A stretch of DNA of 32,201 nt, from positions 1 through 32,201 of the forward strand of contig CAMBQP010000051.1 of NCBI GenBank assembly GCA_945869955.1. Direction: 5' to 3'. Positions 9,455 to 15,842 of this stretch are shown in pieces (the stretch's first letter is position 1; each line of letters begins with the position of its first letter). The notes below the pieces were generated by a model. The model saw only the letters and a list, made by a program, of their open reading frames with translations, made no database searches and was not told where the DNA came from. The DNA is from Schlesneria paludicola DSM 18645. Its GTDB lineage: Bacteria; Planctomycetota; Planctomycetia; Planctomycetales; Planctomycetaceae. The position numbers and the translations under genes were made by a program.

Positions 9455-9780
9455 ATCAGTGCAGTCAAAACAAATAGGTCTCGGGCAATTCGTCGTGTTC
9501 TCGACGGCAGAATACAGACTGATCCAGCCTCTCAGGTCGTAAGTTCGCTGTTGGGTGACAGGTGCGAAGATCGGGGATGTCGTCTGGGTAGGAAAAGAGT
9601 TAACAGTACAAATCGGGGTCTCTGTCTGCTGCGAGTTCGCAGATACGGATCCTGAAAATCCCCAAGCAACATCTATGGGGTACGACGAGAATCCCAGTTA
9701 GTCGACAGCGTTACACCGCCAACGCGAGCAGGGTACAAGCCAAGGGGTGGGCTGACCGTGGGGACACCTGGCTCACTTAC
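9455..9780. other. Gene-free stretch before the 230-bp repeats
   Basis: I see no coding sequence here that resembles a known family. The short open frames lack a Shine-Dalgarno and have unstructured, Arg/Ser-rich translations. The stretch leads directly into the first 230-bp repeat and may be degraded repeat or transposon-related sequence. Confidence 0.4.
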
Positions 9781-10010
9781 GGGTCAAACGATCGGATCGC
9801 TCGTGTGTCGCATGTCGTTGATCCGCAAAGTTTAACCGCGCCTCGAAGAGAAGCGCGTTAACCGGCAGCCCTGCACCAACCCGAGGTGTCTTTGCACGTT
9901 TGATCATTGACGAACTCATCGACCGTACGTTTCCACGCCGAGACAATATCGATGCCCGGAAACGGCCGAAGAGGTCGGCTGAACACCGACCCGCCTGCGC
10001 CGATGGCTAC
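9781..10010 (+). repeat. 230-bp repeat, copy 1 (complete)
   Basis: Complete unit running from GGGTCAAACG to CGATGGCTAC, where copy 2 starts head-to-tail. It contains several potential hairpins: GGATC/GATCC around CGCTCGTGTGTCG; TTAACCGCGC/GCGCGTTAA; a CACCA/TGGTG-like pair near 9877-9890, weakened here by one base; and GGTCGG-CTGAACA-CCGACC. Reading the reverse strand gives an Arg-rich open frame that recurs in other copies. Confidence 0.85.
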
Positions 10011-10167
10011 GGGTCAAACGGTCGGATCGCTCGTGTGTCGCATGTCGTTGATCCGCAAAGTTTAACCGCGCCTCGAAGAGAAGCGCGTTAACCGGCACCC
10101 CTGCACCAACCCGTGGTGTCTTTGCACGTTTGAGCATTGCGAGCCTCGTTGACGGCGGTTTCCAATA
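10011..10167 (+). repeat. 230-bp repeat, copy 2 (truncated at its right end)
   Basis: Follows copy 1 in tandem with very few differences up to about 10139, then decays gradually. TTGACGGCGGTTTCCA still aligns with the equivalent part of copy 1. The last roughly 70 bases of the unit are missing, and the transposase gene region begins there. Confidence 0.8.
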
Positions 10168-10185
10168 CATCAAACACACCAATTA

Positions 10186-10806
10186 TTAGTGGTAGGCGAC
10201 CCTGCCCGATTCAAGACCGCGATACGGTGCCACCCATGACCATTGCTGCATTGGCTTTCCTTCAAGAATTGGATTTTGTTCCACATATCGAATTGCATTC
10301 GAAATTGCCTCATCGTGATCGAGATAGACCTTCCAACGACTATGTGCCCAAACGGAACGGAATCGACCGTCCGATTGCAGGTGCTGCATGGGATGCCGAC
10401 AGTCTATCACCAATTGTCGAGTGGCAGCACCTTTGAGCAGCGTCGCGATTTGTTCAACCTTGTAGTGATGGCGAGCGATCACTAAATGAGTGTGTTGGGG
10501 CATGATCGCACAGGCCCAGATTGTATACCCATTTTTTTTAACAAGAGTCGCAAATCCCTCGGCAATCGATTCTTTTTGGTCATCTGTGAGTGTCACCGCT
10601 GGATACACCAGCGCCCGTTGAGCCGCGTTTCGTGCTGCCACTTCTCGGGGCGTCAATTCGGACAATAATTTTCTCGAGAGCGTCCGACGTGGATGGCCAA
10701 ATTGAACAAGCTCCCATCGCCCCACAAAATCCGACCAACTTCCCCGAGGATCGTTCGGAAGCCAATAGCCATACATGGTCAGAATCACGTGATACCCGTG
10801 GATCAT
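10186..10806 (-). CDS. RAYT-type (REP-associated, IS200-like) tyrosine transposase
   Basis: Single-domain Y1 HUH-type transposase of 206 aa from the ATG at 10806; an upstream TTG at 10815 would add three residues. The metal-binding pair is His105 and His107 in IMPQHTHLVIA, with Thr in the middle where most relatives have a hydrophobic residue. The nucleophile is Tyr174 in AIRYVEQNPI, a form typical of the REP-associated group. The N-terminus GYHVILTMYGYWLPNDPRGS is the shape seen in planctomycete IS200-like proteins. These enzymes act on hairpin-forming single-stranded DNA and are usually single-copy and domesticated. Here the gene lies between two blocks of a 230-bp hairpin-rich repeat, in reverse orientation to them. 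The frame is intact with no frameshift. Whether it still mobilises DNA is unknown. Confidence 0.85.
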   Translation of the reverse strand: MIHGYHVILTMYGYWLPNDPRGSWSDFVGRWELVQFGHPRRTLSRKLLSELTPREVAARNAAQRALVYPAVTLTDDQKESIAEGFATLVKKNGYTIWACAIMPQHTHLVIARHHYKVEQIATLLKGAATRQLVIDCRHPMQHLQSDGRFRSVWAHSRWKVYLDHDEAISNAIRYVEQNPILEGKPMQQWSWVAPYRGLESGRVAYH

Positions 10807-10901
10807 TTTCGTCAATCACCCATTACAAAACCGAGTTGGTCACCAAAAATCAACCGACAGCATTGCAGGGTAGCAAGACGTGACACAAAAACAGTGTCGC
10901 C

Positions 10902-11081
10902 GTTTAACCGCGCCTCGAAGAGAATCGCGTCAACCGGCAGCCCTGCCCTACCCAAGGTGTCATTGCACATTTGAGCATTGACGACTTAGTCGCCGATAAT
11001 TTTCTACCTCGAGCTGAAATCGATGTCCAGAGACGGCCGAAGAGGTCGGCTGAACACCGACCCGCCTGCGCCGATGGCTGC
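10902..11081 (+). repeat. 230-bp repeat, copy 3 (truncated at its left end)
   Basis: Begins abruptly at GTTTAACCGCGCC, about 50 bases into the unit, and runs to the junction with copy 4. It is more diverged than the others (AGAATCGCGTCAACC replaces AGAAGCGCGTTAACC, weakening that stem), but keeps the perfect GGTCGG/CCGACC hairpin. It is the first copy on the right side of the transposase gene. Confidence 0.8.
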
Positions 11082-11311
11082 GGGTAAAACGGTTGGATCG
11101 CTCGTGTGTCGCATGTTGTTGATCCGCAAAGTTTAACCGCGCCTCGAAGAGAAGCGCGTTAACCGGCACCCCTGCACCAACCCGTGGTGTCATTGCACGT
11201 TTGACCATTGACGAACTAGTCGACCGTATGTTTCCACGCCGAGATGAAACCAACCCCCAGAGACGGCCGAAGAGGTCGGCTGAACACCGACCCGCCTGCG
11301 CCGATGGCTAC
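11082..11311 (+). repeat. 230-bp repeat, copy 4 (complete)
   Basis: Complete unit of the same 230-base period, starting GGGTAAAACGG and ending at CGATGGCTAC. It retains TTAACCGCGC/GCGCGTTAA, CACCA-ACCCG-TGGTG and GGTCGG/CCGACC. Confidence 0.85.
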
Positions 11312-11360
11312 GGGTCAAACGGTTGGATCGCTCGTTTTAATCATGCTGTTGGGCCGCAAT
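11312..11360 (+). repeat. 230-bp repeat, copy 5 (remnant)
   Basis: The first 27 bases (GGGTCAAACGGTTGGATCGC and on) match copy 4. The next 20 or so are only loosely similar (ATGCTGTTGGGCCGCAA). The array ends here, shortly before the 3' flank of the TIR-STAND-FGE gene. Confidence 0.6.
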
Positions 11361-11445
11361 GGCGTTTGGGGCGATGGTTGATCTCGATCGCGGATCTGGG
11401 CGGCACGATGATGATCACCGCTCCCCCTTCCACTCCGGCACCTCC

Positions 11446-11508
11446 GGTCGGGGCTACCGCCCGCTCCCTACGGGCCTCCGTTCCAGGGTACGCTCGCTCT
11501 TCCCGACC
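11446..11508. other. GC-rich inverted repeat downstream of the TIR-STAND-FGE gene
   Basis: GGTCGGG (11446-11452) pairs with CCCGACC (11502-11508) across 49 bases, and CTCCGG occurs next to both arms. The area lies 39-101 bases past the leftward stop at 11547. If the gene end is a DGR variable region, a GC-rich element and hairpin would be expected nearby, but the usual form is a short-loop hairpin, so the match is loose. No gene is seen in 11361-11546. Confidence 0.3.
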
Positions 11509-11546: not shown

Positions 11547-14500
11547 CTACTCGCTGGAAGGAACTGCGGCCACACGAAAGCCCAGGCTGCTGTTCCGGAG
11601 GTCCGGAGTGCTCCAGAAGCGGATCGCCGAGCGGCAATTGGACGCTCCGCTGCTCCAGCAACCGCCCCGGCTCACCCGGCCCGAGCCCGACTTAGCACCG
11701 ATTGGATCTACGACAGCCTGCCCACCATAGTCGTCATGCCAATCGTGACACCATTCCAAAACGTTTCCATGCATGTCAAACAAACCGTATCCGTTTGGTA
11801 ATTTCGCGCCACTCAACGTGGCTTGATTTTCGGACAATGGCATCCAGGTCCCATATTTCCGCGATAAGACTTCTTGATTGCCACTACTATAAAATGTCGT
11901 CGTCCCCGACCGACATCCAAATTCCCATTCCGCTTCCGTCGGTAAGCGGTATCCAGTGCCATGAGGAACCAGTTCCCACGTGTCCCATTCTTCGCCCGCA
12001 ACTTTCTCCTTCTCGCCGGTTCGGACATAAGCAGGATCGCGACCGTTCTGCTTACTCAGCCAATTACAATACAGCACCGCGTCATACCAACGGACCTGCT
12101 GAACCGGGTAACCCTCGCCCGGGCTGTAATTCTTTTGAGCCCCGATCCAACCCTGAGGCTTTTCTGAATCGGGATAGTCCCGATCGTTCACGAACTGCCG
12201 AAACTGCAACACCGTGATCTCGCGATCGCTCAGGTAATAAGCCTGACTCAACGTGACCGACTGCTCTACGAACTCACTACCAGGGGAATCTTTCCGAACA
12301 AACATCCCCGGCTCGATCTTGAGCATCGTGATTCCCTGCGAATTGCGAAACCAGCTTTCCTTTGCCCGTGGCAGACCCGGTTCCGATTTCTTCAACTCTG
12401 GTTCAGGGACACCCCACTGACGGAGCGCCCAACCGGCAGAACTATGCAGCACAGACGCGTCAGCGGCTACATACCAATCCTCGAACAGCGCAACCCACAG
12501 CGACTTGAAATCCGCTCGCAGACTCTCTTTTTTGATCGCACCCACCCCACAAGCCAAGGCCGAGCGAAGGGGGACATCCTCGGCGTTTTTTGCCTGTTTC
12601 AAGAGCTTCCCAAGATCGCCATGCCAATCCGGAAACCGATCAATGAACAGCGTCCGCTCGATCGGGTCGGGACGATCTTGAATCTGACACATGTCACTCG
12701 CAATCGTGGCGTCTCCCAAATGCAAGCCGATCACCGCCAAACGACATTTCCACTGCCACTGCTGATTCATCGGTGCGTAAATCCGCGTTTCGCCTTCCTT
12801 GGGAGGTACTGCCGGAGTGTTTGATTTGGCCGCTAAGGTCGCCTGATCGGCAAGCTCGTGAAGCCTCGGCAACGCTCGTTCGCTCACATGGCCCAAGGCC
12901 GTGACCAAATTATCCACTTCATCCGCGTTCGCCGTTTCGATGTACGAACAAAGTTTTTCCACATCCCCCTGCCCAAACGCGGCGAATGCATACGCGAGAC
13001 TTTGCTCTCCCCGCTCATTTGCCGCCGCACTGACCACCTGCGCCTGCTTTTCCAACTCGGCAATCACCTGACGCGTCGGATACTTTTTGTCCAGCAAATC
13101 TTGAATCGGGTTGGCTGTCCATTTTCCAGAACTGTTCGCAATCTTATTCACTAACTTATCGAGATCGTTTTTCCGCTGGATCTGCTGGTAACTAAACCAC
13201 CCACTCCCCAACAACAACACTCCCGCACTGACCAGCAGCCACTGATTCCGTTTCCGAGACTTTTCCACTGCCAGACTGCGGTGCAGATAGGTCCGCTGAT
13301 CCGGACCCAGATCCTCCTGCCGTGCAGGATAGAACTCCCGTGCGTTCCGCAGCGCACTTCCACGCAGCAATGCGGCAGCCCCGTCCCGCTGCCACTCGTC
13401 CAACTTCAATTCCAACTGGGTCCGCCAGAGCAAAAACCTCCGGTCCTGATTCACCCATCCCTTCAAACGCCCCCACCGACGTAACAACTCTTCATGGGCC
13501 ACTTCCACCGTCATCCCGCTGGGAACGCCCTGACTCGCTGCGGCATCACTCGGCCCCGCATCGGTTACCTCCGCGGTCAGGTCGAGAGATCCCTCGCCCC
13601 CTCCACCCGCTCCAGACGTGATTAACAACCGCTTGTCGGCCAGATGACGCGCCACGCGGCGGGAGGTTTCATCCAGTTCGCTCAGTGGAATTCGTCGTCG
13701 CGTATCATTTTCCGAACGGGAACCGGCCCGAACCAGTTTGCGAAACAGTAGCGGACAGGCTTGCTGCTCGTCCTGCGGTAACTCGCCATAAACCTCTTCC
13801 GCATACGTGGCAATCGCGCGACTCAGTGGCCCCCCTGTTTCGGCCTGAAGAGCCGCTCCCTGCGAAGCCTCTTGTCGGCCAAGATTTTCATATCCGGCAT
13901 GCGTCATTTGCGAAACCGTACGGCGTTTCCACAGCTCTTCCAATGCAAATTCCAGCAGCGGCAGATTCCCTTGTTCCGCCCCCGCTTCCGCCAGAATCCG
14001 GTCGACCAACCCCTCCTGAAACGTCAGCCCGACGTTACTCGCCGGCCCCTCGATTATTGCACGCAACTCGTCGACGTTCATCGGCCCGAGATCCAGGTGG
14101 CTGTTCGAGATACGGTCGAGTAACTGTCGGTCCTGCAGAATCTCGGTATAAAAATCCCCGCGAACGGTCATCACGACCGACAGGGGTGAATCCTTGCGGG
14201 AGGTCGCCGCCAGCAGTTCTTGCACAAACCGCATCCGCCGCTGGGGATTTTCACAACTGGTATAAAGCTCTTCCCACTGATCGACGAACAACAGCAAGCG
14301 GGTGGTCCCCGGCTGCTGTCGTAAGACAGCATTCACGCGACCCCACAGCGGCACCACCGGATCGACCTGCTCCAAATCCCGAGCAAACTTATGCAGTTCC
14401 TCTTCCAGGGGCGTATGTGAAAGATGAGGATCGCTTAAAGGGACGAGCGCCGAAGCCAACGAATAGAGCGGATCGAGATGCGGAACCATGCGGACCACAT

Positions 14501-15155
14501 CCCAGACCGGCCCCTTGCCAAAAGTTCGCAAATGAGGAACCAATCCGGCACTCACCAGTGACGACTTGCCGCTCCCCGAGGCACCAATCACCGCCACGAA
14601 CGATTGTTTTTCGACCAGGTCAATCAATTTCTGTTTGTAGACGTCACGGCCGAAGAAGAACGAGGCATCTTCTTCCCGGAAGGCGAACAGACCTCGGTAG
14701 GGGCAGATCAAGTTCTGGGGCTGCAGACCATTCCGATCGACCGATTCGCCCCGAATCGCCGCTGCCAATTTATCCAGCGCGACCTCATGGTCCGCTTCAT
14801 TCCGCAGATCAATCCACATCAATTGCTTCAGAAACCCCAAGGGGGGTTCGCAACCGGGGAGCAACACAGGAATCACGGGAAAGTCATTGCGTCCGGCGAG
14901 TTGATCGAGCGCCCAGGCCCGTTCCCGCTGCTGCCAAGGGCCCATGGGATTCGGCCCCAGAAAAATGGCGACGGCGCGACTGGATTGCAGCGCCTGTTCC
15001 AGCGCCACCACCCAATCGTGTCCCGGCGAGAGATACCATCGATCGACGAACGCCGAACGCTGGCGCGACTTTAAGGCATTGGCCACGCGTTCCACCTGGA
15101 TATGATCCAAGGAGTTGTAGCTCAAAAACACGTCATACAACGGATCGCCAGCCAT
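11547..15155 (-). CDS. TIR - STAND NTPase - FGE (formylglycine-generating enzyme-like) fusion protein
   Basis: 1202-aa signalling or immune-type protein, numbered from the ATG at 15155; a TTG at 15233 would add 26 residues of poor quality. Residues 5-115 form a TIR domain (YDVFLSYNSLD), with Glu78 in GPWQQRE at the position of the NADase catalytic glutamate. A STAND/AAA-type NTPase follows: the lead CPYRGLFAFREEDASFFFGR, Walker A GASGSGKSS at 191-199 and Walker B LLLFVDQWEEL. A single membrane segment is near 639-657 (WLLVSAGVLLLGSGWF). From about 944 there is an FGE/sulfatase-modifying domain of C-type lectin fold (MLKIEPGMF, YRLPTEAEWEFGCRSG, GNVLEWCHDW, LGFRVA). Of the two catalytic cysteines of true FGE, only the second is kept (NCRS); the first position is Ser. 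The domain is therefore probably a ligand sensor rather than an enzyme. Its last 100 bases resemble a DGR variable region (separate entry). Confidence 0.9.
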   Translation of the reverse strand: MAGDPLYDVFLSYNSLDHIQVERVANALKSRQRSAFVDRWYLSPGHDWVVALEQALQSSRAVAIFLGPNPMGPWQQRERAWALDQLAGRNDFPVIPVLLPGCEPPLGFLKQLMWIDLRNEADHEVALDKLAAAIRGESVDRNGLQPQNLICPYRGLFAFREEDASFFFGRDVYKQKLIDLVEKQSFVAVIGASGSGKSSLVSAGLVPHLRTFGKGPVWDVVRMVPHLDPLYSLASALVPLSDPHLSHTPLEEELHKFARDLEQVDPVVPLWGRVNAVLRQQPGTTRLLLFVDQWEELYTSCENPQRRMRFVQELLAATSRKDSPLSVVMTVRGDFYTEILQDRQLLDRISNSHLDLGPMNVDELRAIIEGPASNVGLTFQEGLVDRILAEAGAEQGNLPLLEFALEELWKRRTVSQMTHAGYENLGRQEASQGAALQAETGGPLSRAIATYAEEVYGELPQDEQQACPLLFRKLVRAGSRSENDTRRRIPLSELDETSRRVARHLADKRLLITSGAGGGGEGSLDLTAEVTDAGPSDAAASQGVPSGMTVEVAHEELLRRWGRLKGWVNQDRRFLLWRTQLELKLDEWQRDGAAALLRGSALRNAREFYPARQEDLGPDQRTYLHRSLAVEKSRKRNQWLLVSAGVLLLGSGWFSYQQIQRKNDLDKLVNKIANSSGKWTANPIQDLLDKKYPTRQVIAELEKQAQVVSAAANERGEQSLAYAFAAFGQGDVEKLCSYIETANADEVDNLVTALGHVSERALPRLHELADQATLAAKSNTPAVPPKEGETRIYAPMNQQWQWKCRLAVIGLHLGDATIASDMCQIQDRPDPIERTLFIDRFPDWHGDLGKLLKQAKNAEDVPLRSALACGVGAIKKESLRADFKSLWVALFEDWYVAADASVLHSSAGWALRQWGVPEPELKKSEPGLPRAKESWFRNSQGITMLKIEPGMFVRKDSPGSEFVEQSVTLSQAYYLSDREITVLQFRQFVNDRDYPDSEKPQGWIGAQKNYSPGEGYPVQQVRWYDAVLYCNWLSKQNGRDPAYVRTGEKEKVAGEEWDTWELVPHGTGYRLPTEAEWEFGCRSGTTTFYSSGNQEVLSRKYGTWMPLSENQATLSGAKLPNGYGLFDMHGNVLEWCHDWHDDYGGQAVVDPIGAKSGSGRVSRGGCWSSGASNCRSAIRFWSTPDLRNSSLGFRVAAVPSSE
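11571..11670 (-). other. Candidate DGR variable region at the 3' end of the FGE domain
   Basis: Encodes RGGCW through LGFRV, the standard site for DGR diversification in FGE-type target proteins. The constant positions (RGG, W, CRSA, R, P, R, LGFR) are kept. At the variable positions the codons are nearly all NNC/NNT: AGC AGC, TCC AAT, ATC, TTC, AGC, ACT, GAC CTC, AAC AGC AGC. That is what adenine mutagenesis of AAC/AAT template codons would leave. Normal C-ending codon bias could contribute. No reverse transcriptase, Avd or template repeat is in the window, so the call rests on pattern only. Confidence 0.45.
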
Positions 15156-15295: not shown

Positions 15296-15300
15296 CCAGT

Positions 15301-15342
15301 CCCCTCGCCCCGGTACTCCGGGGCGAGGGTTAGGGTGAGGGG
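15301..15342 (+). repeat. REP-like hairpin element, pair 1 left
   Basis: A perfect 12-bp stem, CCCTCGCCCCGG / CCGGGGCGAGGG, with a TACT loop (15302-15329), then the tail TTAGGGTGAGGGG. The same element recurs inverted at 15477 and again as a pair near 31.2-31.4 kb. Confidence 0.85.
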
Positions 15343-15476
15343 TTCTTCGATCAGCCCAACACCACCCAAAAAACTCTCCGGCCTTCCCGATGAATTTCCT
15401 CTTTCATTTTCCGCTTCCTCTTTTATTTTCCGCATTGAATTCGACCGTCGTTTTTTTAAACCGGGCCGAAATAAGA

Positions 15477-15518
15477 CCCCTCACCCTAACCCTCTCCCTG
15501 GAGTACCGGGGCGAGGGG
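15477..15518 (-). repeat. REP-like hairpin element, pair 1 right (inverted)
   Basis: Reverse-oriented copy: tail CCCCTCACCCTAA, then the imperfect stem CCCTCTCCCTGG / CCGGGGCGAGGG around AGTA. The stem has mismatches compared with its partner at 15301. Confidence 0.8.
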
Positions 15519-15842
15519 ACTGGCCGCAAACAGCTTTCTTGACGCGCTTTCTCCTATTTTTCCCTCTTTCTCACGATTTCTTATTCGTTGGATGCGTGTG
15601 ATTCGTGGTTCCCTCTCCTCAATAATTTTCATATTTTCTTTGATTGCTGTGATTTTTTCTTGCGATTTGTTAAAATGAGATTCGTCGCCACAAGATTCGG
15701 CACGGTTGTGATTCGGTCCATTTTTTCTGCATTCTTCGAGTTTTCATCTGGGATTCTCGATTGCTTCATAATTGACTGCTAAATTTCTCGACATTCCTGT
15801 CAGCGAACTCCCGTCAACAAGCCCTCACGCGATCCGGATACG

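Follow-up and report, generated by a model that had tools for sequence, protein, structure and literature searches.

A gene in the 32,201-nt stretch of DNA analysed here (the window) is best explained as encoding an NLR-like receptor with an FGE sensor hypermutated by a diversity-generating retroelement (DGR), a reading to which a probability of roughly 0.8 is assigned. The gene lies on the minus strand, with its ATG at 15155 and its stop codon at 11547–11549, and forms an uninterrupted frame of 1202 aa with TIR, nSTAND1 and FGE-fold domains. The preliminary description had placed this intact frame correctly at 11547–15155, leaving out the strand, and the TIR, STAND and FGE domains that it had named were all matched in Pfam (TIR_2, nSTAND1 and FGE-sulfatase), far above cut-off. 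The features are as follows:

11547–15155, minus strand: TIR-nSTAND1-FGE receptor gene, 1202 aa (open reading frame and Pfam)
14766–15131, minus strand: TIR domain, aa 9–130, with Glu78 in a W-x3-E motif (Pfam TIR_2, E 1.4e-22)
13380–14702, minus strand: nSTAND1 NTPase, aa 152–592 (Pfam nSTAND1, E 9.8e-110)
13188–13241, minus strand: putative membrane helix, about aa 639–656 (Kyte-Doolittle)
11568–12329, minus strand: FGE/C-type-lectin-fold domain, aa 943–1196 (Pfam FGE-sulfatase, E 7.9e-41)
11562–11687, minus strand: DGR variable region (VR), aa 1157–1198 (own-genome DNA search and template comparison)
11408–11497, minus strand: conserved structured hairpin downstream of the VR, a candidate DGR target-site element (covariance model R1, 96.4 bits)

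The 1202-aa protein combines an effector, a STAND NTPase with Walker A and B motifs and a C-terminal sensor, the layout of NLR-like STAND proteins. The predicted structure of the N-terminal domain (pLDDT 71) matches TIR folds, and Glu78 lines up with its equivalent in oyster TIR-STING and PdTIR and is unchanged in 14 relatives; both the fold and the catalytic-position Glu that mark TIR NADases are present, bearing out the earlier assignment of Glu78 to the NADase position. The Walker A (GASGSGKSS, residue 191) and Walker B (LLLFVDQWEE, residue 287) motifs of the NTPase are likewise intact, as had been described. Membership of these well-established families points to an NLR-like TIR effector function, and the sequence further predicts ligand-triggered activation of the nSTAND1 switch, NADase activity and a role of the protein in phage defence. 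PADLOC models gave only weak hits. The single membrane helix that had been claimed is borderline in the window protein (Kyte-Doolittle 1.56 over 17 residues at about 639–656) but stands out in two orthologues (2.39 and 2.0); a real helix would place the TIR and NTPase domains in the cytoplasm and the sensor possibly in the periplasm.

The same genus and family contain TIR-nSTAND1 relatives of full or nearly full length, with 49% identity in genomes G001 and G060. The G001 orthologue (G001:C139, L109 1483–5055) has the same TIR-nSTAND1 scaffold joined to an FGE variable tail of another type (...FRVCRARISF), closer to the type found on contig C67 of the window genome (...FRVSRTRIGF); this suggests a reshuffling of scaffolds and VR families between genes. 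In the G060 orthologue (L110 1387–4500) the frame stops at about residue 1052 and a VR/template-like match lies 1.1 kb downstream (G060:C14:103594–103652); this may be a broken gene.

Among solved structures, the best match of the FGE domain by sequence is Treponema denticola TvpA (E 1.6e-30), and the same chain is the top structural match (E 5.4e-23) of the FGE domain model (pLDDT 91). TvpA is a known DGR variable protein, and through this match in both sequence and fold the domain shows the C-type-lectin-fold variable domain expected of a DGR target. An active formylglycine-generating enzyme was considered and rejected: in an alignment to human FGE, Cys1174 falls at C341 and Ser1169 at C336, so one of the two copper Cys ligands is missing and enzymatic activity is unlikely. 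Ser1169 is itself a VR codon. The preliminary description was right in taking the FGE domain as a lectin-type probable sensor but overlooked that its C-terminal ~45 codons are a DGR variable region.

That the 3’ end of the gene, its last ~120 bp, is such a region is almost certain. The changeable codons include 1159, 1162, 1168, 1169, 1178, 1180, 1181, 1182, 1186, 1188 and 1190. A DNA search of the window’s own genome using the last 161 bp returned three further loci with 81–86% identity, encoding a short FGE protein (C69), a Ser/Thr kinase-FGE protein (C271) and a TIR-NACHT-FGE protein (C380, a contig that begins inside the VR). A degenerate VR pattern run over the 6.25 Mb matched exactly four loci, the window and these three, and its reversed control gave no match over the same 6.25 Mb. 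The 400 nt upstream of the VR are merely 49–57% identical between loci, with near-identity beginning at the VR itself. Among the three complete copies, almost all differences fall at the first two positions of NNC codons, as expected from an AAC-rich template. Single adenines outside AAC codons vary too, giving Cys1166 in the window where other copies have Ser, and Trp1181 in place of Gly or Arg.

A template was inferred by placing AAC at the variable codons and was searched against 99 related genomes. It matched real template repeats in G028 and G044, both rich in AAC/AAT codons and each overlapping the 3’ end of a reverse transcriptase (RT) gene. An HRDC-domain gene adjoins the G028 template repeat (Pfam), a similar gene was recognised by reading in G044, and the G028 template contig is judged from the match position to be JAQBZS010001039. 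Compared with the G028 template, which comes from another planctomycete genus rather than from the window’s own genome, 24 of the 25 variable positions in the three complete copies lie at adenines, and no variation is seen at 93 of the 94 non-adenine sites (Fisher p = 6e-18); VR changes are confined mostly to template adenines, as is characteristic of a DGR target. The G044 template gave p = 5e-14. As a positive control, the two VRs at the G044 locus were compared with their own template, and their changes lay at adenines in 15/16 and 17/18 cases.

These data bear directly on two other accounts of the common 3’ end. The gene could encode a TIR-STAND receptor of fixed specificity, its FGE domain binding one conserved ligand and its C-terminal similarity reflecting ordinary homology; FGE domains do have common conserved C-terminal motifs, the domain gives a plain FGE match in Pfam, and no DGR gene was found within the 32,201-nt window. 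Ordinary homology, however, would not yield near-identical synonymous sites beside saturated adenine sites, nor does it sit with upstream DNA that is just ~50% identical between loci, with the real template repeats of relatives or with the strength of the adenine confinement, and this account is highly improbable. The end could also have spread among FGE genes by gene conversion or module duplication, without reverse transcription, given that the VR and the element downstream of it are common to loci as a ~280-bp block (82% over 276 bp between the window and C271). Neither event would restrict the differences to template adenines or NNC codons, and very little weight is given to them. With a DGR variable region at the sensor tip, the receptor has no fixed ligand, and hypermutation of the site is ongoing or was so until recently; active diversification today is likely.

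The genome contains one complete DGR, on C67 (L050 4294–11477), comprising an RT, an Avd protein (NCBIfam, above cut-off), a template and VRs. Its targets are a trypsin-NTPase-FGE protein and another, truncated FGE protein, and its two VRs are changed at template adenines (12/13 and 18/20). The C67 template belongs to a different family, with just 71% identity over 62 bp to the window VR, and this DGR was rejected as the donor. A template repeat of the window VR family was not found in the 394-contig, 94.8%-complete assembly, where the family is represented by four VR copies only, and no second DGR RT was found there besides that of C67. The RT on C205 (506 aa, L054 3144–4664) was considered as a DGR RT and discarded, its NCBIfam matches being retron-like and below cut-off and its locus lacking an FGE neighbour. 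An HRDC accessory was likewise discarded as a trace of the missing cassette, being merely a 69-residue match inside a 779-aa frame that is probably a RecQ-type helicase.

The receptor may on this evidence be a DGR relic, diversified formerly and frozen once its template and RT cassette were lost, or its VR may be served by some other source. The missing template and RT would fit such a history, as would the lack of a counterpart to the G028 HRDC accessory other than the match in the helicase-like frame. Against this, the assembly is fragmented exactly at the VR repeats, with C380 beginning inside the VR and C349 inside the downstream element, and the non-adenine sites are so nearly identical among copies that the last overwriting must have been recent. 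A relic is held to be unlikely, and the template and RT were presumably lost to assembly gaps rather than being absent.

A GC-rich element (11497–11408) lies ~50 bp past the end of VR homology, downstream of the stop codon, and DNA similar to it follows VRs in other genera. Searches of genomes with a covariance model of the element scored the top first-look candidates only. In the window’s own genome, the model found five places: the window, C271, C69, C191 and the start of C349. The first four copies all stand directly past FGE VR-type ends. C349 starts inside the element (L161 1–75) and is without an FGE gene; it appears to be the far side of the repeat broken at C380, or an assembly break at an unseen VR. 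Across the 99 relatives, 27 of the 29 assessable matches with fetched loci are downstream of an FGE C-terminus, at a distance of 20–76 nt as measured from C-termini found by regular expression, and the same holds for 14 of 16 matches outside the training set. The two exceptions among the 29 are a match with an FGE-like tail only and the weakest match, which has nothing beside it. None of eight template repeats carries a downstream copy. Because the training set came from VR-bearing loci, the evidence for specificity consists of the unconditional genome searches only. A VR-like FGE C-terminus followed by the hairpin was also observed in G039:C40 (L170 ~1360–1500), without an obvious open gene upstream, and is possibly a degraded target.

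In the alignment of the element 94% of cells are paired, and 40 cells show double changes against 11 for shuffles and no more than 8 for slid controls, counts that are flattered by the fitting of the alignment to the structure; the fold of the first alignment already gave compensatory pairs. No family matching the element was found in Rfam. The ~90-nt hairpin, conserved and covarying and placed after such VRs in many planctomycetes, is proposed as a DGR target-site element. Efficient homing in phage BPP-1 depends on a stem-loop directly after the VR, and in phage-type DGRs the stems measure 7–10 bp, with GRNA loops, and lie 4–34 bp past the VR (Guo et al. 2011, PMC3240598); a stem-loop after the VR was again important in E. 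coli (PMC12875486). The window hairpin likewise lies shortly downstream of the VR and has a GRNA-type loop (GGTA), as do several other copies though not all, whereas its ~90 nt with interrupted helices differ from the 7–10 bp stem of BPP-1. Since it is longer and only some copies have the GRNA loop, the putative function of the hairpin would at most be like that of the BPP-1 site.

The hairpin could instead act in FGE genes as a transcription terminator or an element of the 3’ UTR, unrelated to retrohoming. It starts 20–76 nt past the last conserved FGE motif, near or beyond the stop codon, as such an element would, and its absence after template repeats discriminates incompletely given that these are not the 3’ ends of genes. 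There is, however, no T-run after the hairpin in the window, few of the genome’s many FGE loci carry it and those that do have VR-type ends, and BPP-1 homing is known to require, or to be enhanced by, a stem-loop just past the VR (PMC3240598; PMC12875486). This alternative is a substantial one, to be put at appreciably less than even odds. Only slightly short of even, and offered tentatively, is the wider proposal that one template repeat in Planctomycetota diversifies, in trans, the sensor tips of unrelated scaffolds (TIR-STAND, TIR-NACHT and Ser/Thr kinase), with the ~90-nt composite hairpin after each VR serving as a conserved cis-acting address by which target genes are marked for overwriting and the template is spared.

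The genes flanking the receptor are metabolic and efflux genes, and no defence gene neighbours it in the window. Downstream of the receptor gene, a RAYT-like/IS200-like transposase ORF (10186–10815, minus strand) has direct-repeat blocks with a GTTTAACCGCGCCTCGAAGAGAAGCGCGTTAACCGGC core on either side of it, within 9780–11359, an arrangement resembling a REP/RAYT array next to the gene’s VR end. Upstream of the gene, a 48-nt inverted repeat (96%; 15296–15343 and 15476–15523, 132 nt between arms) was observed, each arm being itself partly palindromic. The preliminary description had the gene sitting alone beside a transposase/repeat island, as is common for accessory defence genes; this argument is weak, with an array of RAYT-like/REP-like character and metabolic and efflux genes as flanks. 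Phage records match the receptor only in part and so give no sign of a phage-borne receptor gene.

In the mechanism proposed for the DGR-diversified receptor, an RT would copy a template repeat held elsewhere in the genome, mutating adenines, and the mutated cDNA would overwrite the 3’ end of the receptor gene, together with those of three or more other genes that end in FGE. Each such gene would gain a new sensor surface on a constant scaffold. Contact between a sensor variant and its ligand, which is most likely an invader or a surface molecule, would be expected to bring about NTPase oligomerisation and the consumption or conversion of NAD+ by the TIR domains, and the cell would thereby be killed or arrested; a probable membrane anchor would lie between the nSTAND1 switch and the C-terminal sensor. 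Retrohoming into the VR of the receptor is presumably ongoing.

This kind of receptor is already known, although experimentally uncharacterised, and what is added here is a VR common to four scaffolds and the conserved hairpin. In multicellular bacteria, nSTAND1/NACHT proteins with lectin folds are DGR targets, some having an N-terminal TIR and some being diversified in trans (Doré et al. 2024, PMC10907252), and systems in which STAND-FGE proteins carry effectors or adaptors, with the DGR in cis or elsewhere, have been predicted to act against invaders (Kaur et al. 2021, PMC8195603). The targets of Thiohalocapsa PB-PSB1 and relatives (PMC10907252, clade 5D) likewise join a STAND NTPase to a C-terminal CLec/FGE VR, some with an N-terminal TIR, and trans diversification has been proposed for them. 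Unlike these, the window target is alone on its contig, has a VR common to kinase-FGE and TIR-NACHT-FGE proteins and a long conserved hairpin past that VR, and the assembly lacks its own template. The STAND NTPase-FGS conflict systems (PMC8195603) similarly fuse nSTAND1 or another STAND to FGS (FGE-fold), with an N-terminal effector or adaptor and a DGR in cis or elsewhere; the window protein differs from them in its direct TIR fusion instead of an EAD adaptor, and in the description of its VR at the nucleotide level. TvpA (PDB 2y3c) has the FGE/C-type lectin fold in common with the window protein, and their C-terminal VRs align without gaps over RV-RGG...LGFR, but its 294-residue chain lacks the TIR-NTPase scaffold. 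The order effector-STAND-sensor is also that of Avs and other bacterial NLR-related antiphage STAND proteins; characterised Avs-type proteins have repeat-type sensors for conserved phage proteins (PMC10907252), in contrast to the hypermutable lectin-fold sensor of the window protein.

The TIR-STAND-lectin fusion thereby becomes a concrete immune-type receptor with a sensor built for hypermutation, its variable codons named, and a single VR family extends across four scaffolds in one genome. A large DGR survey of 2021 states that remote targets are invisible to it (PMC8144416), and the covariance model of the VR-adjacent hairpin finds such targets; if the hairpin is a cis address, it alone could locate remote DGR targets overlooked by RT-centred surveys. 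If it is a homing address, the old question of how DGRs discriminate target from template would become testable in planctomycetes by stem mutations. The bacterium can probably rewrite what its receptor detects, as animals diversify their immune receptors.
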